A stretch of 64,000 bases of DNA. It comes from Nocardioides pocheonensis (lineage in GTDB: Bacteria > Actinomycetota > Actinomycetes > Propionibacteriales > Nocardioidaceae). This document shows positions 5,213 through 56,519 of this stretch, one piece after another. Under the pieces are notes generated by a model, which saw only the letters and a list, made by a program, of their open reading frames with translations, did no database searches and was not told where the DNA came from. Every line of letters begins with the position of its first letter. Within the stretch, counting starts at the first letter, position 1. The stretch spans positions 1-64,000 of the forward strand of contig NZ_RJSF01000040.1 in the NCBI RefSeq assembly GCF_003725535.1. The letters are read 5' to 3'. Both the position numbers and the translations under genes were made by a program.

Positions 5213-5248
5213 GGTGGTTGAGGTGCGAGCGCAGCGAGCCTCGAAGCC
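5213..5248 (+). repeat. Palindromic repeat copy carrying the meaB start codon
   Basis: GGTGGTTGAGG at 5213 through CCTCGAAGCC ending at 5248 is almost identical to the copy at 14286-14322 (one base insertion and one substitution). Both candidate GTG starts of meaB (5214 and 5223) lie inside it, so the repeat encodes the first dozen residues (VVEVRAQRASK). Confidence 0.8.
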
Positions 5249-6239
5249 TCTCGATCTCGACGCGCTGGTCGCCGGCATCCGGGACGGACGACGCAGTGAG
5301 ATCAGCCGGGCGATCACGCTCGTGGAGAGCTCGCGCCCTGACCACCGGGTCGCGGCACGTGAGCTCCTCGGCCGGCTGCACGAGCCGGCGACCGGCGCCA
5401 GGGCGAACCGGGTGGGCATCTCGGGCGTGCCCGGCGTCGGGAAGTCGACGTTCATCGAGGCGCTCGGCACCTGGCTCACCGGCTCGGGTCACCGGGTCGG
5501 GGTCCTCGCCGTCGATCCGTCCAGCGTGCGCACCGGCGGCTCCGTCCTCGGCGACAAGACCAGGATGGCCCGGCTCTCGGCCGATCCCGACGCCTACATC
5601 CGGCCCTCGCCCTCGGCCGGCACGCTGGGCGGCGTCGCGCGCGCCACGACCCAGGCGATGACGGTGCTCGAGGCGGCCGGGTACGACGTCGTGCTCGTCG
5701 AGACCGTCGGGGTCGGCCAGTCCGAGGTGACCGTCGCGGGGATGGTGGACACCTTCCTCTTCCTGACGCTCGCCCGCACCGGCGACCAGCTCCAGGGCAT
5801 CAAGAAGGGCATCCTCGAGATCGCCGACGTGATCGCGGTGAACAAGGCCGACGGCGACCGCGAGACCGAGGCGCGCTCCGCGGCGAAGGAGCTCTCCGGC
5901 GCGTTGCGGCTGGTGTACTCCGGCGGCGACAGCTGGGTGCCGCCGGTGCTCACCTGCTCCGCGCTGGAGAACCACGACATCGACCGGGTCTGGCAGCGGG
6001 TGCTCGAGCACCGCGCCTTCCTCGGCGAGGAGGGGCTGTCCCGCAAGCGCGCCGAGCAGCAGCTGGAGTTCACGTGGGCGCTGGTGCGCGACGAGCTCGC
6101 CGAACGGCTCCGGCGCTCGCCGGGGGTCGCGGCGATCCGCGACCAGATCCGTCGCGAGGTGCTCTCCGGGGAGCTCGCCGCGTCGGTGGCCGCCGACCGG
6201 CTGCTGGCCGCCTACGACGAGGACCGTCACGGAACCTGA
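5214..6239 (+). CDS. meaB: MeaB-type GTPase, methylmalonyl-CoA mutase chaperone
   Basis: 341 residues with GTG 5214 as start; GAGG sits about 6 bases upstream, overlapping the mutB stop region. The G3E-type GTPase core shows the P-loop GVPGVGKST at residues 71-79, a Walker-B region VVLVETVGVGQSE, and the base-recognition word NKADG. MeaB gates cofactor loading and protects the mutase from inactivation, using GTP hydrolysis. The first 11 or so residues are encoded by a dispersed repeat and are not part of the conserved family; the conserved part begins near LDALVAGIRDG. No ATG lies between the repeat and the conserved core. Confidence 0.92.
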   Translation: MVEVRAQRASKPLDLDALVAGIRDGRRSEISRAITLVESSRPDHRVAARELLGRLHEPATGARANRVGISGVPGVGKSTFIEALGTWLTGSGHRVGVLAVDPSSVRTGGSVLGDKTRMARLSADPDAYIRPSPSAGTLGGVARATTQAMTVLEAAGYDVVLVETVGVGQSEVTVAGMVDTFLFLTLARTGDQLQGIKKGILEIADVIAVNKADGDRETEARSAAKELSGALRLVYSGGDSWVPPVLTCSALENHDIDRVWQRVLEHRAFLGEEGLSRKRAEQQLEFTWALVRDELAERLRRSPGVAAIRDQIRREVLSGELAASVAADRLLAAYDEDRHGT

Positions 6240-6266
6240 CCGGCCCGCTCCGGTCTCCGGGGCGGG

Positions 6267-6280
6267 TAACCTTGACGCTT
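6267..6280 (+). promoter_or_regulatory. Probable leaderless promoter of the M20 amidohydrolase
   Basis: TAACCT at 6267-6272 lies 8 bases before GTG 6281 with no Shine-Dalgarno sequence between them, in the 41-base gap after meaB. Confidence 0.5.
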
Positions 6281-7498
6281 GTGTCCGCTGACTCCTCGTC
6301 GATCCCGACCCTGGTCGAGCGCACCAACGCGTGCGTCGACGAGCTGACCGACGAGCTGGTGGACCTCCGCAGGGACCTCCACGCCCACCCCGAGCTGTCC
6401 TGGCACGAGGAGCGCACGACCGGTCTGGTGGCCAAGCGCCTCGGCGAGGCCGGCCTCGCGACCCGGCCGCTGGGAGGCACCGGGCTGCTCGTCGACATCG
6501 GCGAGAACCCCGGTCCGGTGATCGGCCTGCGGGCCGACCTGGACGCCCTGCCGGTCGAGGACCTCACGCCGGACCCGTGGCGAAGCACGATCGACGGCGT
6601 CGCGCACGCGTGCGGGCACGACGTGCACACCGCAGGCCTGGTCGGTGCCGGCCTGGCGCTCCAGGCGGTCGCCGCCGACCTCCCGGGCCGGGTGCGGCTG
6701 ATCTTCCAGCCCGCCGAGGAGATCATGCCCGGCGGTGCGCTGATGTCGATCAGGTCCGGCGCGCTGGAAGGCGTCAGCCGGATCTTCGGGCTGCACTGCG
6801 ACCCGGGCATCGACGTCGGTCACCTGGGCCTGCGCGAGGGCCCGCTCACCGGGGCGGCGGACTCGCTCGACGTGCGGCTCACCGGCAAGGGCGGGCACAC
6901 CTCGCGACCGCACCTCACCGAGGACCTCACCTTCGCCCTCGGCAAGCTGGTCACCGAGCTCCCGGCCGTGCTGTCCCGTCGTCTCGACCCCCGCGCCGGC
7001 GTCAGCGTGGTCTGGGGCCTGGTCCGCGCCGGGTCGGCGATGAACGTGATCCCCGCGATCGGCCGCGCCGCCGGCACCGTGCGCATGCTCGACGCGGTCG
7101 CGTGGGCCGACGCCGAGCACCTCGTCCGCGAGACGGTGGGCCAGATCGTCGAGCCGTACGGCGTGACGCCGGAGGTCATCTACGTCCGCGGCGTCCCGCC
7201 GGTGATCAACGACCACGCCTCGACCGTCCTCCTGGGGCGCGCGATCGAGGCGGTGGTCGGCGAGGACGGCCACCTGTCGACGACGCAGAGCCTCGGCGGC
7301 GAGGACTTCGCCTGGTTCCTCGAGCACGTCCCCGGTGCGATGGCTCGGCTCGGGACGCGCACACCGGGCGGGCCGACGTACGACCTGCACCAGGGTGACC
7401 TGCGCGTCGACGAGCGCGCGGCGCCGATCGCCGCCGGCGTGCTCGCCGCGGCGGCCGTCCAGGCATTGGCGCACGCGAGGGGAAATCCTCCTGCGTGA
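6281..7498 (+). CDS. M20D-family metallo-amidohydrolase (AmiB1/hippurate-hydrolase type)
   Basis: 405 residues from GTG 6281; upstream codons in the same frame are not conserved-looking and a -10 box sits just before the GTG. The family hydrolyses N-acyl amino acids or related amides with two metals. Visible metal-site words are HACGHDVH (Cys about 111, His about 113), PAEE near 144-147 and LHCDPG, followed by a dimerisation domain with GKGGHTSRPH. From memory, mycobacteria carry amiA1/amiB1 near deoD and pmmB, in keeping with the salvage genes here. There is no signal peptide, so it acts in the cytoplasm. The substrate is unknown. Confidence 0.85.
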   Translation: MSADSSSIPTLVERTNACVDELTDELVDLRRDLHAHPELSWHEERTTGLVAKRLGEAGLATRPLGGTGLLVDIGENPGPVIGLRADLDALPVEDLTPDPWRSTIDGVAHACGHDVHTAGLVGAGLALQAVAADLPGRVRLIFQPAEEIMPGGALMSIRSGALEGVSRIFGLHCDPGIDVGHLGLREGPLTGAADSLDVRLTGKGGHTSRPHLTEDLTFALGKLVTELPAVLSRRLDPRAGVSVVWGLVRAGSAMNVIPAIGRAAGTVRMLDAVAWADAEHLVRETVGQIVEPYGVTPEVIYVRGVPPVINDHASTVLLGRAIEAVVGEDGHLSTTQSLGGEDFAWFLEHVPGAMARLGTRTPGGPTYDLHQGDLRVDERAAPIAAGVLAAAAVQALAHARGNPPA

Positions 7499-7641
7499 GT
7501 GGGCTGGACCCCTTGGTCACGACCTGCTAACGAACGCGCGAACGGACCTTTTCCTCTACTCGCGGGACCAACGCCCCGACTAGGGTGCCGGGTGATCGGC
7601 GCCGTGTCCTACGGTGCGTTCCCAACACCCAGGAGGGCATC

Positions 7642-8721
7642 TTGCGTCGCTTGAGCAAGATCTCTGTCGTGGCCGTCGTCGCGTTGATCGCGCTGACCGG
7701 TTGCGGCAACAAGACGGACAACAAGAACGACAAGACGGGCAGCACCGCGAACGCCGACGTCTGCAAGACCGCCAAGGGCAACGGCCCGAAGGTCGGCCTG
7801 GCGTACGACGTGGGTGGTCGCGGCGACCAGTCCTTCAACGACTCCGCCTACGCCGGTCTGAAGAAGGCCGTGGGCGACCTCAAGGCCACGTGCGTCGAGG
7901 GCGAGGCGACCGACGGCGAGGCCGAGTCGGCGCGCGAGAGCCGGCTCAAGGACATGGCCGACGCCGGCATGAACCCGATCATCGGGGTCGGCTTCGCCTA
8001 CAGCGACGCGGTCAACGCAGTGGCGCCGAACTACCCCGACATCAGCTTCGGCGTGATCGACGGGTTCGACCCCGACCAGACGGCCAACAAGAACGTCGCC
8101 TACCTCGGCTTCGCCGAGAACGAGGGCTCCTACCTCGTCGGTGTCGCGGCCGCGCTGAAGTCGAAGGCCGGACACATCGGCTTCGTCGGTGGCGTCCACA
8201 ACGACCTCATCAAGAAGTTCGAGGCCGGCTACGTCGCCGGTGCGAAGGCCACCAAGCCGGACATCAAGGTCGACGTGAAGTACATCCAGGAGAGCGACCT
8301 CAAGGGATTCGGTGACCCGGCCGGTGGCCAGGAGGCTGCCACGGCCGAGTTCGACAACGGGGCCGACGTCGTCTACCACGCCTCGGGTGCGTCGGGTTCC
8401 GGCGTCTTCGATGCCGCGGTCTCGGCCGGCGACGGCAAGTGGGCGATCGGTGTCGACTCCGACCAGTACCTCACGGCGTCCGACGCCCAGAAGCCGCACA
8501 TCCTGACCTCGATGCTCAAGCGCGTCGACGTCGCGACCTACGACATGATCAAGTCGGTCGCCGACGGCTCGCCGCTCACGAGCTACCAGACCTACGACCT
8601 GAAGAAGGACGGGGTCGGCTACGCCAAGTCGGGTGGGTTCGTCGACGACATCGCCTCGAAGATCGACGAGGCGGCGACGAAGATCAAGTCCGGCGAGATC
8701 AAGGTTCCGGACAAGCCCTGA
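7642..8721 (+). CDS. BMP/PnrA-family nucleoside-binding lipoprotein
   Basis: 359 residues beginning at TTG 7642, chosen because AGGAGG lies at 7631-7636, 5 bases before it, and because it opens a clean lipoprotein signal: basic RRLSK, a hydrophobic stretch and lipobox LTGC with the lipidated Cys at 21. The mature protein shows the Bmp fold words VGLAYDVGGRGDQSFND, YAGLKKAV and a late GVDSDQYL region that contacts the ligand. Members bind purine or other nucleosides for import. It heads the transporter operon, and a strong hairpin separates it from the ATPase gene, which should favour higher levels of the binding protein. Confidence 0.92.
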   Translation: MRRLSKISVVAVVALIALTGCGNKTDNKNDKTGSTANADVCKTAKGNGPKVGLAYDVGGRGDQSFNDSAYAGLKKAVGDLKATCVEGEATDGEAESARESRLKDMADAGMNPIIGVGFAYSDAVNAVAPNYPDISFGVIDGFDPDQTANKNVAYLGFAENEGSYLVGVAAALKSKAGHIGFVGGVHNDLIKKFEAGYVAGAKATKPDIKVDVKYIQESDLKGFGDPAGGQEAATAEFDNGADVVYHASGASGSGVFDAAVSAGDGKWAIGVDSDQYLTASDAQKPHILTSMLKRVDVATYDMIKSVADGSPLTSYQTYDLKKDGVGYAKSGGFVDDIASKIDEAATKIKSGEIKVPDKP

Positions 8722-8763
8722 CCAGGCCGTTCGGCACCAGAGCAACACTCACCGCGAGGTGAG

Positions 8764-8808
8764 ACCCGGGCCCGGACCCAGACGGTAGCGTTTGGATCCG
8801 GGCCCGGT
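8764..8808 (+). terminator. Intercistronic hairpin between binding protein and ABC ATPase
   Basis: ACCCGGGCCCGGA (8764-8776) pairs with TCCGGGCCCGGT (8797-8808), 12 paired bases with a 20-base loop. Its place between the binding-protein gene and the next cistron suggests partial termination or 3'-end stabilisation of the first message. Confidence 0.6.
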
Positions 8809-13150: not shown

Positions 13151-14294
13151 CCTGACGTCGCCCGACGTCGTCGCCGACCCGTACCCCTTCTTCGACGTCG
13201 AGCGGGCCGAGCACCCGGTGGCGTGGCACGAGGGGATGGGCCTGCACCTGGTCTTCGACCACGCGACCGTGAGCGCGATCCAGCGCGACCGGCGGTTCGG
13301 CCGGCTCTGGCGGGACAAGGAACCGGCGAGCTATCTCGAGCCGTTCAACCTGCTGCACCGCAACCAGATGATGGAGAACGAGCCGCCCGAGCACACGCGG
13401 TTGCGCCGCCCGGTCGCCGCGGCCTTCGCCCGGGGGCACGTCGAGCGGCTCCGGCCGCGGGTGCGCGCCCTGGCGGCCACACTGCTCGCCGAGGTGGACC
13501 CCACCGGGTTCGACGTGATCGCCGACTACGCCGAGCCGCTGCCGGTGCTGGTCATCGCCGAGCTCCTCGGCGTCCCGAAGTCGTACGCCGACTCGCTGCG
13601 GGCCTGGTCCCAGGCGATCGTGCGGATGTACGAGCCGGCGCCGGCACAGGCGGTCGTCGACGCCGCCGTCACCGCCGCCCGTGACTTCGCCGCGCTGGTC
13701 CGGGAGCTCGTTGCGGCGCGTCGCGCCCACCCGGCCGACGACCTGATCACCGACCTGGTCGCGACCGAGCTCACCGAGGACGAGGTCGTCGCCGCGGTCG
13801 TGCTGCTGCTCAACGCGGGCCACGAGGCGTCGGTGAACGTCTTCGGCAACGGCCTGGTGGCGATGCTGCGACGAGGGCTCGTGCCCGCCGAGGAGGTCGC
13901 GCTCACCGTGGAGGAGATGCTCCGGTTCGACTCCGCGCTGCAGCTCTTCGAGCGCACGGCCACCGAGGACGTCGAGATCGGGCCGGAGGGGCACCGGGTG
14001 CTCGTGGAGCGGGGCCGGAAGGTCGCCGTGCTGCTGGGCTCGGCGAACCGCGACCCGGCGGTCTTCGAGGAGCCAGGGGAGTTCCGCGTCGACCGGAGCC
14101 CGAACAACCACGTCGCGTTCGGGGTCGGCGTGCACTTCTGCCTGGGCGCACCCCTGGCCCGGATGGAGCTGAACGAGTCGCTCGCCCACCTGTTCTCGGC
14201 GTACCCGCACCTCGCCCTGTCCGGAGAGCCCGAGAGCCGGGGCACGTTCGTGCTCCGCGGCTACCGCCGTGTGCCGGTCTCGGCCGGTGGTTGA
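13122..14294 (+). CDS. Cytochrome P450 with an EryF-like I-helix
   Basis: 390 residues from ATG 13122, a start inside cdd that begins a normal bacterial P450 N-terminus (DLTSPDVVADPYPFFD). The haem-binding loop FGVGVHFCLGAP places the thiolate Cys at about 340, and ExxR is E265-R268. The I-helix reads AGHEAS at 232-237. The usual Thr is Ala, followed by Ser, as in P450eryF, where a substrate hydroxyl replaces the missing Thr. The gene sits between cdd and deoA. Its TGA lies within a dispersed palindromic repeat. The redox partner is not in the window and the substrate is unknown. Confidence 0.93.
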   Translation: MRSVPTTSLDLTSPDVVADPYPFFDVERAEHPVAWHEGMGLHLVFDHATVSAIQRDRRFGRLWRDKEPASYLEPFNLLHRNQMMENEPPEHTRLRRPVAAAFARGHVERLRPRVRALAATLLAEVDPTGFDVIADYAEPLPVLVIAELLGVPKSYADSLRAWSQAIVRMYEPAPAQAVVDAAVTAARDFAALVRELVAARRAHPADDLITDLVATELTEDEVVAAVVLLLNAGHEASVNVFGNGLVAMLRRGLVPAEEVALTVEEMLRFDSALQLFERTATEDVEIGPEGHRVLVERGRKVAVLLGSANRDPAVFEEPGEFRVDRSPNNHVAFGVGVHFCLGAPLARMELNESLAHLFSAYPHLALSGEPESRGTFVLRGYRRVPVSAGG

Positions 14295-14322
14295 GGTGCG
14301 AGCGTCAGCGAGCCTCGAAACC
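14286..14322 (+). repeat. Palindromic repeat supplying the P450 stop codon
   Basis: GGTGGTTGAGG at 14286 to CCTCGAAACC ending at 14322. The TGA within GGTTGAGG is the stop of the P450 gene, whose last residues (AGG) are repeat-encoded. The ends can pair (GGTTGAGG with CCTCGAAACC). Confidence 0.8.
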
Positions 14323-22168: not shown

Positions 22169-23173
22169 TCAGTCCAACGTGAAGTAGTCGGGGCCGGAGT
22201 AGCGGCCGGTCTGCATCTTGGTGCGCTGCATGAGGAGGTCGTTGAGCAACGTCGACGCGCCGAACCGGAACCAGTCGGGGTCCAGCCAGTCGCTGCCCAC
22301 GACCTCGTTGACCATCACGAGGTGCTTGATCGCGTCCTTGCTGGTGCGGATGCCGCCGGCCGGCTTGACCCCCACCTGCTGACCGGTGGTGTCGCGGAAG
22401 TCGCGCACCGCCTCCAGCATCACGAGGATCACCGGCAGGGTCGCCGCCGGCTGGATCTTGCCCGTGGACGTCTTGATGAAGTGGCCGCCGGCGAGCATGC
22501 CGAGCCAGCTGGCCCGACGCACGTTGTCGTAGGTCTGCAGCTCGCCGGTCTCCAGGATCACCTTGAGGTGGGCGCTGCTGCCGTCGGCGCGGACGCACGC
22601 CTCGCGGACCGCGACGATCTCCTCGTAGACCTGCAGGTAGCGCCCGGAGAGGAACGCCCCCCGGTCGATCACCATGTCGATCTCGTCGGCGCCGGCCTCG
22701 ACGGCGTCCCGGGTGTCGGTGAGCTTCACGTCCAGCGGCGCACGGCCGCTCGGGAAGGCCGTCGCCACGGCCGCGACGTGCACTCGTCCGGCGGTCGAGC
22801 CTGCCGAGACCCCGAGGGCCTCGCGCGCGACGCCGACCATGTCGCCGTACACGCACACCGCGGCGGTCGACGGGCAGGACGGGTCGGCCGGGTCCGGTCG
22901 CATCGCCTTGGCCGCCAGCGCGCGGACCTTGCCAGGGGTGTCCATGCCCTCGAGGGTGGTCAGGTCGACCATCCTGATCGCGAGGTCGATGGCCTGTCTC
23001 TTGGACTCGGTCTTGATCGACCGGGTGCCGAGCGAGGCCGCGCGTTGCTCGGCGCCGACCTGGTCGACGCCGGGCAGGCCGTGGAGGAAGCGTCGGAGTG
23101 CCGCGTCGCTGGCGGTCTCCTGCGCGAACGTCGTCGCACCGGGTGAGGGCGCCGTTGCCTTCAAGGTGGTCAC
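22169..23173 (-). CDS. deoC: Deoxyribose-phosphate aldolase (long form)
   Basis: 334 residues, longer than the roughly 250 of E. coli DeoC and closer to the eukaryote-like long class. It cleaves 2-deoxyribose-5-phosphate to glyceraldehyde-3-phosphate and acetaldehyde. The Schiff-base Lys is at about 234 in HFIKTSTGK; a second active Lys lies in VKPAGGIR and the proton-relay Asp in ADEIDMVID. The start is GTG 23173, 7 bases after a TAGACT -10 box. Residues GVSAGSTAGR between GDMVGVAREAL and VHVAAVATAFP are encoded by a copy of the dispersed repeat and look like an insertion. Confidence 0.94.
   Translation of the reverse strand: MTTLKATAPSPGATTFAQETASDAALRRFLHGLPGVDQVGAEQRAASLGTRSIKTESKRQAIDLAIRMVDLTTLEGMDTPGKVRALAAKAMRPDPADPSCPSTAAVCVYGDMVGVAREALGVSAGSTAGRVHVAAVATAFPSGRAPLDVKLTDTRDAVEAGADEIDMVIDRGAFLSGRYLQVYEEIVAVREACVRADGSSAHLKVILETGELQTYDNVRRASWLGMLAGGHFIKTSTGKIQPAATLPVILVMLEAVRDFRDTTGQQVGVKPAGGIRTSKDAIKHLVMVNEVVGSDWLDPDWFRFGASTLLNDLLMQRTKMQTGRYSGPDYFTLD
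22792..22811 (+). repeat. Dispersed repeat inside deoC
   Basis: CGGTCGAGCCTGCCGAGACC matches the short form of the repeat seen at 55975-55994. On the deoC strand it reads GVSAGST in frame. Confidence 0.75.
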
Positions 23174-23851: not shown

Positions 23852-25520
23852 GGCCGGGCTCGACCCGGGTGCGGCCGTGGGTCCGCGCCGTCGCCCGGAC
23901 GCCCGCCTGCCAGGTGCGGTGGCCACCGTCGAGGTTGGCCACGTCGAAGCCGTGCTGGGCGAGCAGCCGGGCGGCCGTGTGGGCGCGCAGGCCGACGCCG
24001 CAGTGCACGATGACCGGGCCGGGCGGGATCTCGTCGAGCCGGTCGCGCAGCGTGTCGAGCTCGACCAGGACGCTGCCCGGGATCGGGGCGGCGGCGTGCT
24101 CGGCGGGTGTGCGCACGTCGAGCAGCACGGCGCCCGCCGCCATCCGGTCGGCGAGCTCGTGCCACTGGACGGTGCGGGTCACCCCGTCGGCCAGGTTCTC
24201 CGCGAGGTAGCCGAGCATGTTGACCGGGTCCTTCGCCGACCCGAACTGCGGTGCATAGGCGAGCTCGAGTCCGGCGAGCTCGCTGGCCGTGAGGCCGCCG
24301 GCCATCGCGGTGCTGATCACGTCGATCCGCTTGTCCACCCCGTCGGTGCCGACCCCCTGTGCGCCGAGGATCGCGTCGGTCACCGGGTCCACGAGCAGCT
24401 TGAGCGCCATCTGCTCCGCGCCGGGGTAGTAGCCGGCGTGCGCGTTGGGGTGCACGTGGATCGCGCGGTACGGCCTCCCCGCGGCCCGCAGCCGCTTCTC
24501 GTTCCACCCGGTGGTGGCGACCTGGAGCCCGAAGACGCCGACGATCGCGGTGCCGTTCACGTCGCGCAGGCGCGCCGGCCGCCCGCAGATCAGGTCGGCG
24601 ACCATCCGGCCCTGCAGGTTGGCGGTGTTCGCGAGCGGCACCAGCACCGCCTCGTGGGTGAGTCCGTCGCGCTTCTCGACCGCGTCGCCGACGGCCCAGA
24701 TCGCCGGGTCGCTGGTGCGCAGGGTGGGGTCGACCGCGATGCCGCCGGCCGGGCCGATCTCGAGGCCGGCGGCCTCTGCGAGGGCGGTCTCGGGGCGTAC
24801 GCCGACCGCGGCGACGACGAGCTCGGCGGGTGCCGTGCTGCCGTCGGACAGCGTGACGGTGTCGGCACCGATCTCGGCCACGCTCACGCCGAGGCGGAGG
24901 TGGACGCCGTGCTCGCGGAGCCGGTCGTGGACCGGCGTGACCATCTCGGGGTCGAGGGGCGCCATGACCTGGTCCGTGGCCTCGACGACGGTCACCCGCA
25001 GGCCGCGGCGGACGAGGTTCTCGGCGAGCTCGATCCCGATGAACCCGCCTCCGATCACCGTTGCGCTGCGTGCGCCGGCGGTCGCGGCGACCAGCGCGTC
25101 GGTGTCCTCGATGTCCCGCAGGGTCAGGGCGCGTCCGATGCCCGGGATCGGCGGGCGCACCGGGCGGGCGCCGGGGGAGAGCACCAGCGCGTCGTACGGG
25201 TGCTCCCGCTCGGTGCCGGTGGTGAGGTCGCGGGAGACCACGACGCGGCGCTCACGGTCGATCCGCACGGCCTCGTGGGAGACCCGCACGTCGAGGTCGA
25301 AGCGCTCACGCAGCGACGCGGGAGTCTGCAGCAGCAGGGCTTCGCGGTCCTCGATCACGCCGCCCACGTGGTAGGGCAGGCCGCAGTTGGCGAACGACAC
25401 GTGGCCGCTGCGCTCGAGCACCGTGATCCGGGCGTGCTCGTCGAGGCGGCGGAGACGGGTGGCGGCGGACATGCCGCCGGCCACGCCTCCGATGATCACG
25501 ACTTCGCGGGGCTTTGTCAT
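23835..25520 (-). CDS. CoA-disulfide/persulfide reductase fused to a rhodanese domain
   Basis: 561 residues from ATG 25520. An FAD/NAD(P)H pyridine nucleotide-disulfide reductase (GGVAGGMSAATRLRR near residue 12, active Cys 46 in FANCGLPYH, GGGFIGIELAENL, AVGDAVE) is followed by a rhodanese domain from about 460 with Cys about 507 in VHCGVGLRAHTA. CoADR-rhodanese fusions reduce CoA or thiol persulfides. The promoter TATAGT lies 7 bases before the start and overlaps a CsoR/CstR-like palindrome. That operator class fits sulfide or persulfide sensing. Its 3' end overlaps the PH-like gene by 17 bases. Confidence 0.93.
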   Translation of the reverse strand: MTKPREVVIIGGVAGGMSAATRLRRLDEHARITVLERSGHVSFANCGLPYHVGGVIEDREALLLQTPASLRERFDLDVRVSHEAVRIDRERRVVVSRDLTTGTEREHPYDALVLSPGARPVRPPIPGIGRALTLRDIEDTDALVAATAGARSATVIGGGFIGIELAENLVRRGLRVTVVEATDQVMAPLDPEMVTPVHDRLREHGVHLRLGVSVAEIGADTVTLSDGSTAPAELVVAAVGVRPETALAEAAGLEIGPAGGIAVDPTLRTSDPAIWAVGDAVEKRDGLTHEAVLVPLANTANLQGRMVADLICGRPARLRDVNGTAIVGVFGLQVATTGWNEKRLRAAGRPYRAIHVHPNAHAGYYPGAEQMALKLLVDPVTDAILGAQGVGTDGVDKRIDVISTAMAGGLTASELAGLELAYAPQFGSAKDPVNMLGYLAENLADGVTRTVQWHELADRMAAGAVLLDVRTPAEHAAAPIPGSVLVELDTLRDRLDEIPPGPVIVHCGVGLRAHTAARLLAQHGFDVANLDGGHRTWQAGVRATARTHGRTRVEPGLRAAG

Positions 25521-26357: not shown

Positions 26358-28051
26358 AGGCCGGCCGCCTTCTGCACGTCGGCGCGGATGGCGTCGAGAC
26401 GACCGGCCGCGGAGATGCGGGCGGCGTCCACCCCGCCCGTGTCATCGGTCCCTGAGCCTGCGCTCCCGGTCCCTGAGCCTGCCGAAGGGGCGACCGGAAC
26501 CACGACCTCCAGGTAGCACTTGATCTTCGGCTCGGTGCCCGACGGCCGCACGATCACCCGGCCGCCGTCGGCGAGCACGTACCGCAGGCCGTCGGTGGGC
26601 GGCAGGTCGGCGCTGCCGGTCGCCAGGTCATCGACGCGCTCGACCGCGAGGCCACCCAGCACCGTCGGGGGCGCCTCCCTGAGGCGAGCCATCGTGGCCG
26701 GGATCTCCGCGAGGTCGGCGAACCGGACGCTCAGCTGGTCGGTGGCGTACAGGCCGTGCGCGCGCGCGACGTCGTCGAGCACGTCGCGCAGCGTGCGGCC
26801 CTGCGCCTTGACCTGCGCCGCGAGCTGGAGCACCAGCAGGATCGCCGAGACGCCGTCCTTGTCCTTCACGTGCTCGGGGTCGACGCAGTAGCCCAGCGCC
26901 TCCTCGTAGCCGAAGGCCAGCCCGGGCACGCGACTGATCCACTTGAACCCGGTGAGCGTCTCCTGGTGCGGCTGCCCCGCGGCGGCCGCCATCGCGCCGA
27001 GCAGGCTGGAGGAGACGATCGACTGCGCGTAGACGCCCTGCTTGCCCCGGCTGAGCAGGTGGTGGGCGAGCAGGGCTCCCACCTCGTCGCCGCGCAGCAT
27101 CTGCCAGCCGTGAGGGCCGGGGAGTCCGACGGCACAGCGGTCGGCGTCGGGGTCGTTGGCGACCACGATGTCGGCGTCCACCTCGGCCGCGAGCGCGAGC
27201 GCCAGGTCCATCGCCCCCGGCTCCTCCGGGTTGGGGAAGCTGACCGTGGGGAAGTCCGGGTCGGGCGCGGCCTGGGCCGCCGGCTCGTGCGGCGCGGCGA
27301 ACCCGGCGAGCTCGAGCACCCGCTGCACGGTGGAGCCGCCGACGCCGTGCATCGGGGTGTACACGATCCGCAGGTCGGCGTACGCCGCCCGGTCGCCGTC
27401 GGCGACCAGGGCCGCGACGGCCTGCTCGTAGCGCTCGAGGACGCCCTCGTCGAGCACCTCGACCAGGCCCTCGTCCGTCGACCGCGGGAGGTCGGCCAGC
27501 GCGCCGACCGCGGCGATCCGGGAGGCGATCTCGGCGTCCGCGGGCGGCACGATCTGGCTGCCGTCGCCGAGGTAGACCTTGTAGCCGTTGTCCTGCGGCG
27601 GGTTGTGGCTGGCGGTGACCATGACACCGGCGATGCAGCCCAGGTCGCGGATCGCGAACGCCAGCAGCGGCGTCGGCAGCGGCCCTGGCATCAGCAGGGC
27701 GCGGATGCCGGCGCCGGCCATCACCTCGGCGGTGTCCCGGGCGAACACGTCGGAGTTGTGCCGGGCGTCGTACCCGATCACGATCGCGGCGCCCGGCGTC
27801 GCGGCACCGGTGTCGCGCAGGTACGCCGCCAGCCCGGCCGCGGCTCGCTGCACCACCACCCGGTTCATCCGCTGCGGACCCGCACCCAGGGCGCCGCGCA
27901 GGCCGGCGGTGCCGAACTCGAGAGTGCCGTCGAACCGGTCCTCCAGCTCGGAGAGGTCGTGGGCCGCGATCAGGCCTTCCAGCTCCGCGCGGGTCGCCGG
28001 GTCGGGATCCTCGGACGCCCAGGCCCGGGCGCGGTCCAGCACGTCGCTCAT
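26354..28051 (-). CDS. pmmB: Phosphomannomutase/phosphoglucomutase (PmmB type)
   Basis: 565 residues from ATG 28051, 7 bases after a TAGCGT box. This alpha-D-phosphohexomutase has the phosphoserine loop TASHNPPQDNGYKVY, the metal loop DPDADRCAVG, the sugar loop GYEEALGYCVD and the phosphate loop RPSGTEPKIKCYLE. It interconverts 1- and 6-phosphorylated hexoses or pentoses; in this position next to nucleoside genes a phosphopentomutase role is also possible. Between EVVVPVA and DDTGGVDAAR lies a Ser/Gly-rich insert (PSAGSGTGSAGSGT) encoded by two tandem repeat fragments at 26445-26482. Confidence 0.9.
   Translation of the reverse strand: MSDVLDRARAWASEDPDPATRAELEGLIAAHDLSELEDRFDGTLEFGTAGLRGALGAGPQRMNRVVVQRAAAGLAAYLRDTGAATPGAAIVIGYDARHNSDVFARDTAEVMAGAGIRALLMPGPLPTPLLAFAIRDLGCIAGVMVTASHNPPQDNGYKVYLGDGSQIVPPADAEIASRIAAVGALADLPRSTDEGLVEVLDEGVLERYEQAVAALVADGDRAAYADLRIVYTPMHGVGGSTVQRVLELAGFAAPHEPAAQAAPDPDFPTVSFPNPEEPGAMDLALALAAEVDADIVVANDPDADRCAVGLPGPHGWQMLRGDEVGALLAHHLLSRGKQGVYAQSIVSSSLLGAMAAAAGQPHQETLTGFKWISRVPGLAFGYEEALGYCVDPEHVKDKDGVSAILLVLQLAAQVKAQGRTLRDVLDDVARAHGLYATDQLSVRFADLAEIPATMARLREAPPTVLGGLAVERVDDLATGSADLPPTDGLRYVLADGGRVIVRPSGTEPKIKCYLEVVVPVAPSAGSGTGSAGSGTDDTGGVDAARISAAGRLDAIRADVQKAAGL
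26445..26482 (+). repeat. Two tandem repeat fragments inside pmmB
   Basis: GGTCCCTGAGCCTGCGCTCC and GGTCCCTGAGCCTGCCGAAG follow each other. They encode the Ser/Gly-rich insert near the C-terminus on the pmmB strand. They match the short dispersed repeat in a variant form. Confidence 0.7.
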
Positions 28052-32008: not shown

Positions 32009-33022
<1,014 letters not shown>

Positions 33023-38192: not shown

Positions 38193-38993
38193 ATGAGCCT
38201 GCCGCCGCCCGGTCCCGATCGCTGCGCCGTCGTCACCGGCGCGTCCTCCGGGATCGGAAGCGAGCTCGCCCGCGAGCTCGGCGCGCGCGGTCACCAGGTC
38301 GTGCTCGTGGCGCGCAGCGAGGACAAGCTCGCGACGCTCGCCGCCGAGCTCGGCGAGCGCGCGCACGTGCTGCCCGCCGACCTGGCCGACCGCGAGGCCC
38401 GTGCCGGGCTGCTCGAGCGGGTGACCGCCCTCGGGCTCGTGCCCGACGTGCTGGTCAACAACGCCGGCCTCTCGACGCTCGGACCCGTGCACCGCAGCGA
38501 CCCGGCCGCCGAGATCAACCTGCTCGAGGTCGACGTGGTCGCCGTCGCCGACCTCTGCAGCCGCTTCCTGCCCGGCATGGTCGAGCGCGGCAGGGGAGCG
38601 GTGCTCAACGTCGCCTCGACGGCAGCCTTCCAGCCGCTCCCCGGCCAGGCGGCGTACGGCGGTGCGAAGGCGTTCGTGCTGTCGTACTCCCACAGCCTGT
38701 CCGGCGAGCTCGCCGGCACCGGCGTCAGCGTCACCGTGCTGTGCCCGGGCCCGGTGGAGACCGGCTTCAACGCGGTCGCGGGCTTCGACGACGAGGAGGC
38801 GCACGACGCGCTGCCGTCGATCATGTGGGTGTCCGCCGCCGAGGTCGCGAGGGCGGCCGTGGCGGGCATGGACCGTGGCCGCGTCGTGGTCATCCCCGGC
38901 GTGGCCAACCGGGCCGGCGCGGCGCTCGCCAGGTTCGCCCCGAAGCGGCTGCTCGTCCCGCTGCTCGCGCGCAACCACCCGGGCCTGCGCTAG
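38193..38993 (+). CDS. Short-chain dehydrogenase/reductase
   Basis: 266 residues from ATG 38193. Classical SDR: TGASSGIG cofactor loop near residue 13, NNAG in VNNAGLSTLG, catalytic Ser in NVASTAAFQPL and YGGAK as the YxxxK variant (Tyr and Lys conserved), then PGPVETGF. It probably oxidises or reduces an unidentified alcohol/ketone. Its TAG shares a CTAG with the stop of the convergent MpaB-like gene, a 4-base overlap. Confidence 0.92.
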   Translation: MSLPPPGPDRCAVVTGASSGIGSELARELGARGHQVVLVARSEDKLATLAAELGERAHVLPADLADREARAGLLERVTALGLVPDVLVNNAGLSTLGPVHRSDPAAEINLLEVDVVAVADLCSRFLPGMVERGRGAVLNVASTAAFQPLPGQAAYGGAKAFVLSYSHSLSGELAGTGVSVTVLCPGPVETGFNAVAGFDDEEAHDALPSIMWVSAAEVARAAVAGMDRGRVVVIPGVANRAGAALARFAPKRLLVPLLARNHPGLR

Positions 38994-40237
38994 CCCGTGC
39001 CCTGCCGATCGGGGAGGGGAGCGATCGGGGGACGGTGGCCGGCGTACTGGAAGCGCTCCATACGCGCGAGAGCACGCTCGGCCCGCCGATCGAGGACCCG
39101 GCGTCCGCGCGGCAGCCGCCCGACGAGGTGCGTCCAGAACACGTTGGCTGGGATCCGCAGCGCCGGGTACCACGGCGGCCGGATCGGCTGGCCCACGTCG
39201 CGCATGCCGTGGCCGAGGTTCAGGAAGGACGCCATGGAGAGCGCACGCTCGCGCTCGTAGGTCCGTCGCCACCGGGACACCCCCGGGGCGTGGTCGTGCA
39301 TCCGGATCAGCCCCTCGCCGAGCAGGCGACTGCTCTCCTCGGGTGCGGAGAACCCGGCGACGATGTTGCCGAGGATCCGCCGCCCGGTCCGCTCGGTGCG
39401 GGGGAGCCAGCGCTCCTCGACCCCCATCAGCCACCCGACGTAGGACCACAGGTGCATGATCGCGGCCGCGTCGTCCTCGGGGATCCGGATGCCCAGCGCC
39501 CGGGCCTGGAGCAGGTAGCTCGTGCTGAACGCCCCGAGCGTGCCGGCCTGGTCGTGCTGGTTGATCGGCGTGCCACGGAACTCCCAGTCCCAGTCGGGAT
39601 CGTGCTCGAGCTGGTGGTTCACGAAGGCGTGCATCACCCGGACGTGCACGCTGAGCTGCCAGCCCTGCCCGGTGCGGGCCATCCCGCCCGGTGCCGTCAC
39701 CGCGAGCCACCACTGGCCGGTCTCGCCGATCCGCTTCAGCGTGTCCTCGGCGATCCGGGCGGTGCGCACCAACGGCTGCAGCGCCCCGCCGCTGCGGTAG
39801 CCGCCGAGCAGCGAGCCGAACGCCAGGATGTCGAACCCGTCCTTGCCGATCCGGCGCGCGGCCGCGCCACCGCGCTCGAGCAGCGCGTCGTCGACCCAGG
39901 CCGGTCGCTCCTCGAGGGGCGCGAAGAAGGACCGCAGCGCCTCGGGAGCGTCCGGTACGGCGTCGACGCCGCCGGCCAGGGCCGCGCGCACCTGCGGCAT
40001 GGTCACCTCGTGCCGCTCGCGGACCGCGCGCACGAGCTCCGCAGCGTGCTCGTCGCGCTGGAGGAGCGCGGCCTGCAGCGCCGCCAGCTCGTCGCCCCGC
40101 ATGCGTGCGCCCGGGCCGGCCAGGGCGAGCACCGGCCGCGCGAACCGCTCGGACCAGCGTGGTGCCGACCCGTACCGCGTGGGCACCGCTCTCGTGGCCG
40201 TGGAGCCGTGAGTGGTGGTCGAGCCTGCGGAAACCAT
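38990..40237 (-). CDS. MpaB/Lcp-family (DUF2236) oxygenase
   Basis: 415 residues from ATG 40237, 6 bases after a TACGGT box on its strand. It matches the haem-dependent MpaB/latex-clearing-protein domain: FDILAFGSLLGGYRSGG, HVRVMHAFVNHQL (conserved Arg and His) and INQHDQAGTLGAFS. Lcp proteins cleave polyisoprene double bonds, and other family members have unknown substrates. There is no Sec or Tat signal, so rubber degradation outside the cell is unlikely. Residues MVSAGSTTTHG come from a dispersed repeat. A divergent TetR gene probably controls it. Confidence 0.85.
   Translation of the reverse strand: MVSAGSTTTHGSTATRAVPTRYGSAPRWSERFARPVLALAGPGARMRGDELAALQAALLQRDEHAAELVRAVRERHEVTMPQVRAALAGGVDAVPDAPEALRSFFAPLEERPAWVDDALLERGGAAARRIGKDGFDILAFGSLLGGYRSGGALQPLVRTARIAEDTLKRIGETGQWWLAVTAPGGMARTGQGWQLSVHVRVMHAFVNHQLEHDPDWDWEFRGTPINQHDQAGTLGAFSTSYLLQARALGIRIPEDDAAAIMHLWSYVGWLMGVEERWLPRTERTGRRILGNIVAGFSAPEESSRLLGEGLIRMHDHAPGVSRWRRTYERERALSMASFLNLGHGMRDVGQPIRPPWYPALRIPANVFWTHLVGRLPRGRRVLDRRAERALARMERFQYAGHRPPIAPLPDRQGTG
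40214..40235 (+). repeat. Dispersed repeat at the MpaB-like gene start
   Basis: GGTGGTCGAGCCTGCGGAAACC reads, on the gene strand, into the N-terminal VSAGSTT right after the ATG. Confidence 0.75.
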
Positions 40238-40924: not shown

Positions 40925-41000
40925 GGTTTCGAGGCTCGCAAGCTCGCACCTCAACCACCGGTGGTTGAGGTGCCGAGCCCCTGGGCGAGGCCTCGAAACC
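40925..41000. repeat. Head-to-head inverted pair of palindromic repeats
   Basis: Copy one (40925-40959) runs GGTTTCGAGGCTCGC...CTCAACCACC and copy two (40960-41000) runs GGTGGTTGAGG...CCTCGAAACC in the opposite direction. They meet in the perfect 20-base palindrome CTCAACCACCGGTGGTTGAG. The unit fills the gap between convergent tetR and accA and is a probable bidirectional terminator. Confidence 0.85.
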
Positions 41001-44075: not shown

Positions 44076-46315
<2,240 letters not shown>

Positions 46316-52666: not shown

Positions 52667-53182
52667 GTGGCGATCAATCCCAAGCTGCTGAACGAGGGCG
52701 AGAGCGTCGTCTGGTCGACCCGGACGCACGTGAAGGCGCTCTTCGTCCCTGCTCTCGTGCTGATCCTCGCCGCCGGCATCGGCGGCTACCTCTCCAGCCT
52801 CCCCGAGAGCCACCAGAACGTCTGGCTGACCATCATCTGGGTGATCGCCGGGCTGGTGGTCCTCGTCTACGCCGTGTGGCCGTTCCTGAAGTGGTGGACC
52901 ACGACCTACACCGTCACCAACCGCCGGCTGACGACCCACAGCGGCGTGCTCAACCGCACCGGTCACGACATCCCGCTCGCCCGGATCAGCGACGTCTCCT
53001 ACGAGAAGGACCTCCTCGACCGGGTCTTCGGCTGCGGCACGCTGGTGATCTCCGACGCCAGCGAGCAGGGCCGGGTCGCGCTCCAGGACATCCCGCGCGT
53101 GGAGCAGCTCCAGCTGAAGCTCTCCGACCTGCTCTTCCACGGCAGCCAGCCCACGAGCTCGGCCACCGATGACGGGACCTGA
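52667..53182 (+). CDS. Membrane protein with bacterial PH domain (bPH_2)
   Basis: 171 residues from GTG 52667, 6 bases after CATGAT. Two transmembrane segments (about residues 26-45 and 53-72) are followed by a PH domain: TTTYTVTNRRLTTHSGVLNRTGHDIPLARISDVSYEKDLLDRVFGCGTLVI, the YdbS/bPH_2 consensus. The function is unknown. The nucleotide cyclase gene starts inside its last 14 bases, so the two are coupled and may act together at the membrane. Confidence 0.88.
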   Translation: MAINPKLLNEGESVVWSTRTHVKALFVPALVLILAAGIGGYLSSLPESHQNVWLTIIWVIAGLVVLVYAVWPFLKWWTTTYTVTNRRLTTHSGVLNRTGHDIPLARISDVSYEKDLLDRVFGCGTLVISDASEQGRVALQDIPRVEQLQLKLSDLLFHGSQPTSSATDDGT

Positions 53183-54185
53183 CCCGACCGAGGTTCCCGA
53201 GCCGGGTGGCCCGACCGGAGCCGACCTCGAGCGCGCCATCCTCGGGGAGACGCCGACGCTGAGCGGCAGCGACATCGCCGCGGCGGCCGGCGTGTCCCTG
53301 GCGGACGCCCGCCGGCTGTGGCGGGCCCTCGGGTTCCCCGACGCGGCGAACCAGAACGCGTTCACCACCGCCGACCGCGACGCCCTCATCCTGGTCGCCG
53401 AGGCGGTCGCGGAGACCGGCATCGACTTCGAGACCATGCTCCGCCTGACCCGCGCGGTCGGGCAGACCGTCGCGAGGCTCGCCGACTGGGAGGTCGCCAC
53501 GATCTCGTCGGCCGTCGACGAGTTCGCCGCCCGCGACGGCGCCTCCGCGGACATGATGAAGGCGACCGTGCGCCTGGTCGAGGAGCTGAGCGCCCGCTTC
53601 GACCGGCTGCTGGTGTACTCCTGGCGCCGGCACCTCGCGGCGGCGATCGGCCGGATCGAGGCGTTCGCGGCGACCGACGACGAGACGGTCACGGAGGCGA
53701 CCGTCGGGTTCGCCGACCTGGTCGCGTTCACGGCGCTGAGCAACGAGCTCGGCGAGGACGAGCTCGGCGACCTGGTGGAGATCTTCGAGACCCGGTGCTC
53801 CGACGTGATCGCCGACCACAACGGTCGCGTGATCAAGACGCTCGGCGACTCGGTGCTGTTCCTCGAGCTGGACCCCGTCCAGGCGATCGACATCGCGCTC
53901 GACATCATCGCGGTCGTCGGGCGCGACGAGCGGCTGCCCGACGTACGCCTCGGGCTGGCGACGGGCCCGGTGGTGCTGCGCATGGGCGACGTGTACGGAC
54001 CCCCGGTCAACCTGGCGGCGCGCTTCACCGCGGTCGCCCGCCGCAACCGGGTGATCATCGACGAGCGCACGGCCGAGCTGCTCCCGGTGGTCGACTTCGA
54101 GACCCGCAAGCTGCCGGCCCGCCCCCTGCGCGGCTTCGGCGACGTGGAGCCGGTCACGGTCCGCCGCACGCGCCCTCGTCACTGA
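53169..54185 (+). CDS. Class III adenylate/guanylate cyclase with N-terminal regulatory domain
   Basis: 338 residues from ATG 53169, overlapping the PH-domain gene. The N-terminal half (about 1-165) resembles the pH-sensing/autoinhibitory domain of Rv1264-type cyclases (LERAILGETPTLSGSDIAAAAGVS, FTTADRDALILVAEAV). The catalytic domain has metal Asp 183 (FADLVAFT) and Asp 227 (TLGDS), adenine-selecting Lys 224 and the VNLAARF transition-state Asn and Arg. All catalytic residues are present, so it should make cAMP. A dispersed repeat follows the stop. Confidence 0.92.
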   Translation: MTGPDPTEVPEPGGPTGADLERAILGETPTLSGSDIAAAAGVSLADARRLWRALGFPDAANQNAFTTADRDALILVAEAVAETGIDFETMLRLTRAVGQTVARLADWEVATISSAVDEFAARDGASADMMKATVRLVEELSARFDRLLVYSWRRHLAAAIGRIEAFAATDDETVTEATVGFADLVAFTALSNELGEDELGDLVEIFETRCSDVIADHNGRVIKTLGDSVLFLELDPVQAIDIALDIIAVVGRDERLPDVRLGLATGPVVLRMGDVYGPPVNLAARFTAVARRNRVIIDERTAELLPVVDFETRKLPARPLRGFGDVEPVTVRRTRPRH

Positions 54186-54207
54186 GGTTTCGGCAGGCTC
54201 AACCACC
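54186..54207. repeat. Dispersed repeat filling the gap between cyclase and mug
   Basis: GGTTTCGGCAGGCTCAACCA followed by CC begins the base after the cyclase stop and ends two bases before the convergent mug stop. It makes up nearly the whole 24-base gap. Confidence 0.8.
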
Positions 54208-54209
54208 GG

Positions 54210-54776
54210 CTAGACCACTCCGGCCGCCTCCGCCGCCGCCCGGTACGCCGTCGCGAGCGTCGCCACGGTGTCGTGGGCGTTGAGACCGGACGGGTTCGGC
54301 ACCACCCAGAGCTCGGAGTGCCCGAGCGGGTCCGGCTGCCGGCCGACCGTGGCCTTCCGTGCACCGAACGCCGCCCGGTACGCCGTGATCCCGGCAACAG
54401 CGACCACGGCGGGACGCCACGCCTCGACGCGCTCGACCAGCCGCGCGCCACCGTCGCGCAGCTCGGCGGTCGACAGCTCGTCCGCACGCGCGCTGGCCCG
54501 CGCGACCAGGTTCGTGATCCCCAGCCCCCGCCCCACGAAGTACGCGCGGTCCGCGTCGGTCATGCCGGCGGCCGGGTCGATCGGCCGCTCGATGATCCCG
54601 GCGGCGAGCAGGGCGGGGTAGAACCGGTTCGCCGGGTGCGCGAAGTGGGTCTGCACCGCGGCGGTCCAGAGACCGGGGTTGATGCCGACGAAGAGCAGCC
54701 GCACACCGTCGCCGACGAGGTCGGGCACGACCGCGCCACGGAAGGCGTCGAGCTCGGCACGGGTGAAGCGGGGCAC
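54210..54776 (-). CDS. mug: Mismatch-specific uracil/thymine DNA glycosylase
   Basis: 188 residues from GTG 54776, 7 bases after TACGCT. It has the glycosylase motifs GINPGLW (catalytic loop with Asn) and VPNPSGLNAH (minor-groove wedge). It removes U or T and lesions from mispairs with G. An upstream extension to 54947 is open but lacks family resemblance and crosses the promoter. It is divergent from purK with 37 bases between starts, each with its own -10 box. Confidence 0.92.
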   Translation of the reverse strand: MPRFTRAELDAFRGAVVPDLVGDGVRLLFVGINPGLWTAAVQTHFAHPANRFYPALLAAGIIERPIDPAAGMTDADRAYFVGRGLGITNLVARASARADELSTAELRDGGARLVERVEAWRPAVVAVAGITAYRAAFGARKATVGRQPDPLGHSELWVVPNPSGLNAHDTVATLATAYRAAAEAAGVV

Positions 54777-54813
54777 GGAGGACAGCGTAGGGATCGCCGG
54801 ATAGGGTCCACCC

Positions 54814-55965
54814 GTGCCACTCGCGCCCACCGTCGCCGTGATCGGGGGCGGCCAGCTCGCCCGGATGATGGCCGAGCCCGCTGCCGCCCTGGGCATCCCG
54901 CTGCGGCTCCTCGCCGAGGCTCCCGGTGTCTCGGCCGCGCAGGTCATCGCCGACCACGAGGTCGGCGACTACACCGACCTCACCACGCTGCGGCTGGTGA
55001 CCGACGGCTGCGCCGCGGTGACGTTCGACCATGAGCACGTGCCGACCGAGCACCTGCACGCCCTCGAGGCCGACGGCATCGCCGTGCGCCCCGGGCCCGA
55101 GGCGCTGGTACACGCCCAGGACAAGGGCGTGATGCGTGCGGCCCTCGCCGACCTCGGCATTCCGTGCCCGCGCAACGCCATCGTCGAGACCCCGGCCGAG
55201 GTCGACGACTTCGGCTACCCGTGCGTGCTCAAGACCACGCGCGGCGGGTACGACGGCAAGGGCGTCTGGTTCGTGACCTCCGAGGAGGACGCGGTCGACG
55301 TCTTCGCGCAGACCGCCGACACCGGCGTGCGCATCCTGGCCGAGGAGCTCGTGGACTTCCGTCGCGAGCTGTCCGCACTGGTGGCGCGCTCGCCCTCCGG
55401 GCAGGTCGCGGCTTGGCCGGTGGTGGCCTCCGAGCAGCGCGACGGCATCTGCCGCGAGGTGATCGCCCCCGCTCCGGACCTCGACCCCGACCTCGCCGTC
55501 CAGGCGCAGCAGATCGCGATGACCGTCGCGGGCGAGCTCGGCGTGGTCGGCGTGCTCGCCGTCGAGCTCTTCGAGACCACCGACGGCCGCGTGCTGGTCA
55601 ACGAGCTCGCGATGCGCCCGCACAACACCGGGCACTGGACGCAGGACGGGTCGGTCACCTCCCAGTTCGAGAACCACCTGCGTGCCGTGCTCGACCTGCC
55701 GCTCGGTGCGCCGGACGCCCGCGCGCCGTGGACGGTGATGGTGAACATCCTGGCGGGGGAGGGCGCCGGGCGCCTGTACGACGGCTACCCGCACGCGCTC
55801 GCCCGTGACCCGCGGATCCGGGTGCACCTCTACGGCAAGGGCCTGCGTCCGGGCCGCAAGGTGGGGCACGTCAACGCGTACGGCGACGACCTCGACGACT
55901 GCCTCGAGCGGGCCCGTCATGCGGCAGCATGGTTCGCGGGCGAACTGGGAGATGAGAGCGAATGA
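54814..55965 (+). CDS. purK: N5-carboxyaminoimidazole ribonucleotide synthase
   Basis: 383 residues from GTG 54814, 6 bases after TAGGGT. ATP-grasp: [79 protein letters not shown]. Makes N5-CAIR in purine synthesis. The stop overlaps purE by 4 bases. Confidence 0.96.
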
Positions 55966-56519
55966 CGGACCCGATGGTCGAGCCTGCCGAAACCCCTGCC
56001 GACACCCGGCCGCGTGTCGGCATCGTGATGGGCTCTGACTCCGACTGGCCGGTGATGAAGGCCGCCGCGGAGGCACTCGAGGAGTTCGACATCGCCTTCG
56101 AGGCCGACGTCGTCTCGGCGCACCGGATGCCCGAGGAGATGATCGGCTACGGCAAGGAGGCCGCCGGCCGCGGTCTTCAGGTGATCATCGCCGGAGCCGG
56201 GGGAGCGGCGCACCTGCCGGGCATGCTGGCCTCGGTGACGCCGCTGCCGGTGATCGGCGTACCGGTGCCGCTGAAGTACCTCGACGGGATGGACTCCCTG
56301 CTCTCGATCGTGCAGATGCCGGCCGGCGTGCCGGTGGCGGCCGTCGCCGTCGGCAACGCCCGCAACGCCGGCCTGCTCGCGGTCCGCATCCTCGCCGCGA
56401 CCGACCCCGGGCTGCAGGACAGGATGACGGCCTTCCAGGCGGCCTTGCGCGACACCGCCCACGAGAAGGGCAAGGCCGTCCGCGAGCAGGCCGCCGGACC
56501 CCGGAAGCTCGGGTTCTGA
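55962..56519 (+). CDS. purE: N5-CAIR mutase
   Basis: 185 residues from ATG 55962, coupled to purK. Class I Pur[35 protein letters not shown] with the catalytic His, [14 protein letters not shown]. The first 22 residues ([18 protein letters not shown]) are an extension before the usual start; VEPAETP comes from a dispersed repeat at 55975-55994. It rearranges N5-CAIR to CAIR. Confidence 0.96.
55975..55994 (+). repeat. Dispersed repeat within the purE 5' end
   Basis: TGGTCGAGCCTGCCGAAACC, the cleanest short-form copy in the window, is read in frame as VEPAET in the PurE N-terminus. Confidence 0.8.

Follow-up and report, generated by a model that had tools for sequence, protein, structure and literature searches.

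Tagged hairpin repeats of Nocardioides pocheonensis and their association with small GIY-YIG endonuclease genes

The first 64,000 nucleotides of contig NZ_RJSF01000040.1 of Nocardioides pocheonensis (hereafter the window) contain a family of short, dispersed, quasi-palindromic repeats, with four long-form and six short-form or stem-variant copies, one of which is preceded by a partial unit. Each unit has a 5' tag that is unpaired; its outer stem covaries, tandem G.A mismatches and a G-C pair follow, and the apical loop is either short (CYTGY) or long. The closing part, GGTT-GA-G...C-GA-AACC, is common to the long and short forms; the apical loop differs, the long form having a longer apical part in place of the 5-nt loop of the short form. 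We consider it likely that these repeats are non-autonomous hairpins resembling repetitive extragenic palindromes (REPs), and that a GIY-YIG endonuclease serves them as autonomous partner, a small, single-domain protein of about 95-110 amino acids related to the UPF0213 proteins. The association between GIY-YIG genes and hairpins is well supported, and mobilisation of the hairpins by the nuclease is our best inference.

Searches of the window gave 5-6 matches, where 0.0-0.1 would be expected by chance. A first-pass annotation of this DNA had placed copies at or near 5213, 14286, 22792, 40214, 40925, 40960, 44614, 54186 and 55975, and all of these are present. It had also listed a variant of the short form at 26445. 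This copy is a different stem variant in which CCCTGAGCCTGC occurs twice in tandem; the second unit (26471-26489) forms a full hairpin and the first does not. A match at 32570 with three mismatches resembles ordinary coding sequence and was dropped from the list. The copies and the genes that they touch (gene names assigned from Pfam) are as follows.

5213..5248, plus strand: long form, whose GTG at 5214 probably starts the MeaB gene (5214-6239)
14286..14322, plus strand: long form; a P450 gene (13059-14294) takes its TGA stop (14292-14294) from it, and a pyrimidine nucleoside phosphorylase gene follows
22793..22811, plus strand: short form with a GGTC/GACC stem, within the minus-strand DeoC gene, reading GVSAGST
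26447..26489, plus strand: partial unit and full hairpin of the CCCT/AGGG variant, within a minus-strand phosphoglucomutase gene
40217..40235, plus strand: short form right behind the start codon of a minus-strand MPAB_Lcp_cat gene (38990-40237), reading MVSAGSTTT
40925..40956, minus strand: long form, first member of an inverted pair
40963..41000, plus strand: long-form variant, second member of the pair; the two tags face each other, between convergent reading frames
44615..44633, minus strand: short form within an acyl-CoA dehydrogenase gene, reading GVSASSTT in a linker of variable length
54186..54204, minus strand: short form between convergent genes, adenylate cyclase-like (ending at 54185) and UDG-like (54210-54947)
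55976..55994, plus strand: short form in the N-terminal part of PurE, reading VEPAET

Rfam models gave no match at the repeats; their single weak hit in the window, V_AS7 at 25321-25489, lies away from them and below the gathering score. The window also opens with a 94-nt direct repeat (1-94 and 249-342) that is 95% identical between its two copies.

The window was compared with five syntenic genomes that cover much of it at about 67-89% nucleotide identity (mostly about 80%), and with a sixth relative, a short contig over its last part. Nine repeat sites could be aligned to two to six relatives each, and at every one of them one or more relatives lack the element. The element at 5213 is absent in G075, G060, G053 and G071, and G087 has a copy of its own there. 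At 14286 it is absent in G060, G053 and G087, and G075 carries its own variant. The region of the inverted pair at 40925/40963 is absent in G053 and G087 and replaced by other sequence in G060 and G075. The element at 54186 is absent in G100; here G087 and G060 have a different intergenic sequence and G075 has an inverted pair of its own.

Within genes, the insert in DeoC adds 18 nt net, in frame, and is absent in all five aligned relatives. The insert in phosphoglucomutase adds 39 nt, likewise in frame, and is absent in both relatives that could be aligned. That in the MPAB_Lcp_cat gene is absent in 3/3 aligned relatives. The acyl-CoA dehydrogenase element is absent in 5/5, its gene being merely 3 nt longer than in two of them. 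The insert in PurE is absent in all six aligned relatives and in all 23 other genomes of the genus. Capture of the repeat by coding sequences, which the first-pass annotation had proposed, is thus borne out for a likely start codon (5214), for a stop codon (14292-14294) and for in-frame peptides that relatives lack. The same annotation had named VEPAET and GVSAGSTT as recurring peptide words and had treated the presence of these peptides in orthologues from distant genera as a refutation. Seven of 50 elements classed by codon bias are intragenic and in frame in a 464-kb sample of the genome (the window, the 180 kb that directly continue it, and 11 regions, 220 kb in all, picked for holding copies). 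The six short intragenic in-frame copies all read VSAGST or VSASST; VEPAET was seen in a coding context in PurE only, and none of the 23 congeners carries the PurE peptide. One short element, near position 7278 of locus L073, is read in frame as VSAGST in a protein that we take to be GatB.

Across the 4.92-Mb genome, the exact short form occurs 164 times, against none for the reversed-pattern control. The family is dispersed, as had been proposed, and its copy number lies far above chance. The same 464 kb contain 46 GAG-CYTGY-CGA cores, 29 of which are enclosed by a full complementary outer stem of 4 bp (permuted cores, 0-1). The stems are GGTT/AACC in 24 cases, GGTC/GACC in two, and CCCT/AGGG, TCCT/AGGA and GATT/AATC in one each. 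In 80 loci from multiple phyla, 123 of 146 cores have a stem of at least 4 bp (permuted cores, 0); 96 of these cores show the TCCT/AGGA stem that was searched for, mostly by construction, and the fair test is the remainder. Among the 49 distinct cores with stems that were not searched for, 27 are complementary, against a mean of 4.7 and a maximum of 13 in 2000 shuffles. Bases of the 5' tag are conserved in each set and those on the 3' side more weakly or not at all. The tag is GGT in the N. pocheonensis genome (G000), GCT in G053 and about TC plus A/G in other phyla. Neighbouring elements within 200 nt of each other (n=32) are mostly inverted, with 26 such pairs (17 +- and 9 -+) next to five ++ and one --.

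The GGTT short form was found in 25 of 100 genomes of the family, at 1 to 146 copies each, and in 5 of 296 genomes of the phylum. Its copy number is very patchy among congeners, ranging from 0 to 146. The core with other stems is far more widespread, and the class as a whole is very widespread in bacteria. An exact scan for TCCTGAGCYTGTCGAAGGA returned at least 113 stretches, and the 80 of these that were listed belong to Alpha-, Beta-, Gamma- and Deltaproteobacteria, Bacteroidota, Chloroflexi, Nitrospirota, Acidobacteria, Planctomycetes, Verrucomicrobia, Patescibacteria and others. Thirty genomes from multiple phyla, a set that is not random since 26 were reached through the TCCTGAGCYTGTCGAAGGA scan, hold 2 to 250 occurrences of TGAGCYTGYCGAA each (at least 10 in 28 of them), whereas the reversed-pattern controls gave 0 to 3. 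Ten of the 30 also contain a sibling core, TGAACTTGTTTCA. The family extends beyond Actinobacteria; the first-pass annotation had known of no named actinobacterial counterpart to the Rickettsia elements.

The GIY-YIG genes came to light in a whole-genome profile search; regular expressions for GIY-YIG or DUF559 proteins, applied twice to the surroundings of elements in selected loci, had yielded nothing useful. PF01541 has matches in 31 of 31 genomes searched, UvrC-like proteins included, and many of these matches are small stand-alone genes. The genome of N. pocheonensis has three, one of them small. The small one maps to contig C39 (43988-44266), not to the window, with 195 nt between it and the end of the contig, and its product scores 57.1 bits against PF01541 (cut-off 22.6). 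It is bracketed by the long form of the repeat, with one plus-strand copy before it and two minus-strand copies after it, and an identical 34-nt sequence is found on both sides. The window repeats are therefore tied to this nuclease. Y5, Y15, R25 and E64 are invariant in 12 proteins of its clade (clade A, KGWSRAKKEALI); the Tyr, Arg and Glu residues are presumably catalytic, as in I-TevI. The closest solved relatives are the UPF0213 proteins 1zg2 and 1ywl, uncharacterised and labelled hypothetical.

In many cases, inverted copies of the element stand on either side of a small GIY-YIG gene, their tags pointing outward. Twenty of these genes have exact-core neighbours, and 13 of the 20 show a plus copy before and a minus copy after the gene; in 11 of these 13 the upstream core begins 29-78 nt ahead of the start codon. 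Some nuclease genes terminate inside an element, which gives the C-terminus PSTSSG or PSTGSG. The association also appears in a test that is independent of the motif. Here, inverted repeats flank 40 of 69 small GIY-YIG gene entries from genomes, as against 0/345 random windows in the same loci and 0/17 large GIY-YIG genes. A clade-A profile matched 63 times in 45 of the 100 family genomes, a few of the matches having internal stops. Of 30 loci from this sample, 25 are flanked at threshold (control 4/150), and 22 of 27 after removal of three duplicates and with slightly different windows. Two protein queries matched 6 and 32 plasmid records, from which 13 loci (3 and 10) were taken; eight of the 13 are flanked. 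Altogether, 70 of 109 small GIY-YIG entries, two of which represent one broken gene (L317), are flanked by inverted repeats, compared with 20/10,000 random windows (13/4000, 2/2000 and 5/4000). Across the family sample, 365 of 404 exact copies of the GGTT form belong to genomes with a clade-A gene. At locus L252 (G049), 20 near-identical elements stand in tandem arrays with a period of about 31-36 nt, five on one side of a GIY-YIG gene and 15 on the other.

The type of hairpin follows the clade of the nuclease. Clade A has 45 flanked entries, with G.A-type hairpins in 39, ambiguous ones in four, unclassified ones in two and CGTC alone in none. Clade B (KNWRRAWKINLI..NP.W.DL) has 19, with CGTC hairpins in nine, G.A in two, ambiguous ones in three and unclassified ones in five; six flanked entries fall outside both clades. 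A Fisher test on the G.A and CGTC rows (39 and 0 in clade A, 2 and 9 in clade B) gives 2e-8, uncorrected for kinship, with ambiguous and unclassified rows left out and with hairpin classes set by expressions that were written after seeing the data. The flanks of clade B include CGTCATGCTGAACTTGTTTCAGCATCCA and, in Aeromonas caviae, CGTCATTCCCGCGCAGGCGGGAATCCA. The small GIY-YIG gene of Neisseria gonorrhoeae is flanked by inverted elements of the ATTCCCGC...GCGGGAAT type.

The REP+nuclease+REP unit can be present or absent as a whole. Sphingobium strains TomTYG46 and TomMM15 carry the unit CGTCAC...gene...GTGACG between fnrL and a response regulator gene, and the sister strain TomTYG74 has one collapsed CGTCAC...GTGACG hairpin at this site. 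Judged by coverage, seven Sphingobium records contain the whole region, and four related ones (TomTYG64, 72, 74 and 65) match it at 75-80% in two pieces. In Azospirillum lipoferum, a unit lies between sufB and sufC, where A. ramasamyi and A. oryzae have none; nine further listed records of the genus each give a two-piece match at 59-62%, the alignment of this region being rough. On Sphingobium chromids (L238, L242, L245-L248), strains differ at orthologous sites in that the stems of a REP doublet have traded places, and short and long apical parts are exchanged between strains at single sites.

Genes of the DUF222/HNH (13E12-like) kind in the N. pocheonensis genome also gather repeats. At loci L034-L040 and at the starts of contigs C1, C2, C3, C5, C23, C34 and C36, short and long elements are packed beside and inside them. 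We rejected these genes as the mover of the repeats: the clusters bracket them, yet DUF222 occurs in 98 of 100 family genomes whatever the number of repeats, and we therefore read the genes as a sink.

Several observations weigh against mobilisation by the nuclease. Inverted repeats are missing around 39 of the 109 small GIY-YIG entries. In the family sample, a clade-A gene is lacking from 8 of the 25 carriers of the GGTT short form and present in 28 of the 75 non-carriers (Fisher p ~0.01). Four genomes with 15-103 core copies (G114, G405, G417 and G425) have a GIY-YIG match of UvrC size only, and small matches in G408 are all divergent. Elements with the closing motif reach about 12 per 100 kb in G070 and G000 but are not dense in G021, G019 and G075, which have the nuclease gene; genomes without it show 0 to 3 per 100 kb. 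The variable length of the linker in acyl-CoA dehydrogenase also counts on this side. No clean target-site duplication was seen, even the closest relatives of the window reaching no more than about 82% identity and the alignments of the Sphingobium sites being imperfect. Nearest-neighbour DNA folding leaves the G.A core unpaired; pairing of these bases in the stem is suggested by the symmetry of the sequence and by general structural knowledge. Finally, the nuclease by itself would need host repair or replication functions to complete transposition, and we infer the insertion chemistry. The unflanked entries and the repeat-rich genomes without a small GIY-YIG gene would also suit a scenario in which GIY-YIG genes are passengers, and the REPs are moved by something else and merely insert, or are useful, next to small nuclease genes. 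That the DUF222/HNH genes, no plausible mover, attract repeats as well fits this idea. We nevertheless regard it as unlikely, given the stereotyped layout of a plus copy before and a minus copy after 13 of 20 genes, the absence of flanks at large GIY-YIG genes, the match between hairpin type and nuclease clade, and the presence or absence of the whole unit at two sites.

GTAG-type REPs and REPINs are hairpins with a GTAG tag at one end that bracket the gene of their partner, the REP-associated tyrosine transposase (RAYT). The first-pass annotation had suggested looking for such a partner here, and a Y1 HUH transposase might indeed have spread the elements and later been lost. The window repeats share the general anatomy of that system, namely hairpins that bear a tag and have a mismatch within the stem, and an arrangement in inverted dimers, and PF01797 (Y1_Tnp) has matches in 12 of the 30 multi-phylum genomes. 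However, none of these 12 is among the five genomes richest in the repeat. The domain is found in 2 of the 100 family genomes, both without the repeat, and in 91 of the 296 phylum genomes; it has no match in any of the 25 family carriers or the five phylum carriers. We therefore rejected a RAYT/Y1 partner, and consider its past action very unlikely; a small GIY-YIG nuclease is indicated instead. Another possibility is that the hairpins are signals selected by the host, such as terminators, mRNA-stability hairpins or DNA-uptake sequences, which spread by recombination instead of transposition. A position between convergent genes, as seen for 54186 and for the pair at 40925/40963, would agree with this. 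On the other side, stem letters change while pairing is kept, the distribution is very patchy, with 0 to 146 copies among congeners, and copies stand in frame within unrelated genes, which makes a host signal highly improbable.

How might a GIY-YIG nuclease mobilise such hairpins? In the model that we favour, the tagged hairpin would extrude where DNA is single-stranded in the course of replication or repair. Its mismatched stem and tag would be recognised by the nuclease, which would nick at the foot of the hairpin, and the freed or primed strand could then be captured or copied at another gap or break. In this way the REP+gene+REP unit would spread, and likewise gene-less doublets and single REPs. 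Insertions into genes would persist only where frame and peptide are harmless, which would account for VSAGST and VEPAET.

In a broader sense, we lean towards the view that small GIY-YIG genes between tagged hairpins (REP+gene+REP) form an unnamed class of prokaryotic mobile element. Their gene-less derivatives would make up a large share of bacterial REPs, including the widespread GAG-CYTGY-CGA repeats and the CGTC REPs, as well as Neisseria dRS3 and, by extension, the Rickettsia palindromic elements (RPEs). Nuclease clade and hairpin type would coevolve, and by nicking single strands that have extruded the nuclease would act in trans to move the hairpins. If true, a cognate nuclease would offer a directly testable mechanism for repeats that have been reported without a dedicated transposase, and the unit would represent a compact mobile element based on GIY-YIG chemistry and not on HUH or DDE chemistry. 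It would also help to explain the repeated addition of short peptides to conserved bacterial proteins.

Literature searches combining GIY-YIG with REP, RAYT, REPIN, dRS3, UPF0213 and palindromic repeats showed no linking paper among those listed, as judged by title, term counts and the start of the abstract; an unlisted one may exist, subscription journals and preprints being outside the scope of the search. The motif letters of the repeat were found in no relevant paper. The available part of the 2013 survey of CGTC-type REPs (Di Nocera et al. 2013, PMC3733652) nowhere mentions GIY, describes no nuclease partner and includes no Actinobacteria. Within the excerpts available, PMC1564403 mentions neither palindrom nor inverted repeat, and PMC6006769 does not mention Actinobacteria.

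Several known systems resemble the window repeats. GTAG REPs and REPINs have in common with them tagged hairpins, inverted doublets and a partner gene bracketed by copies of the element (in part after the accessible text of PMC3733652). They differ in their GTAG tag and HUH Y1 transposase, whereas the window repeats have no GTAG tag and a GIY-YIG nuclease as the indicated partner. CGTC REPs, which according to the same part of the survey have no dedicated transposase, are likewise short tagged hairpins with a loop of about 5 nt, occurring mainly as inverted dimers, with intragenic copies and no RAYT (PMC3733652). In our analysis, elements with the CGTC tag flank clade-B GIY-YIG genes. CGTC REPs are defined by a CGTC (or TGTC, CCTC) tag and a stem of 8-9 bp starting with AT, neither of which the window elements have; their tag is GGT or GCT-like, their stem carries G.A mismatches (in the N. 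pocheonensis genome, GGTT and then tandem G.A) and does not begin with AT, and a form with a long loop occurs. RPE-4 and RPE-6 of Rickettsia, which that text equates with CGTC-type REPs, share in-frame insertion into protein genes with the window repeats; they differ in host group and are likened by description only (PMC3733652). The likeness to Rickettsia elements drawn in the first-pass annotation stands for in-frame insertion, and the class with which RPE-4 and RPE-6 are equated shows the same kind of nuclease association. Neisseria dRS3, equated there with CGTC-1 (PMC3733652), is similar in that inverted elements flank the small GIY-YIG gene of N. gonorrhoeae. It differs in its perfect stem, its CGTC tag and the clade of its nuclease.

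Taken together, the window repeats behave like REPs, and we place them in a wider set of GIY-YIG-associated tagged hairpins. We file them under neither the GTAG/RAYT nor the CGTC REPs, because the defining tests of the former failed and the CGTC tag is absent; CGTC REPs look like another branch of the same set. Free-standing GIY-YIG homing endonucleases are a known stand-alone class, and these, as well as the UPF0213 proteins, resemble the nuclease described here in being a single small GIY-YIG domain encoded by a stand-alone gene. What sets this nuclease apart from both is that its gene is bracketed by hairpins which also occur as many gene-less copies.

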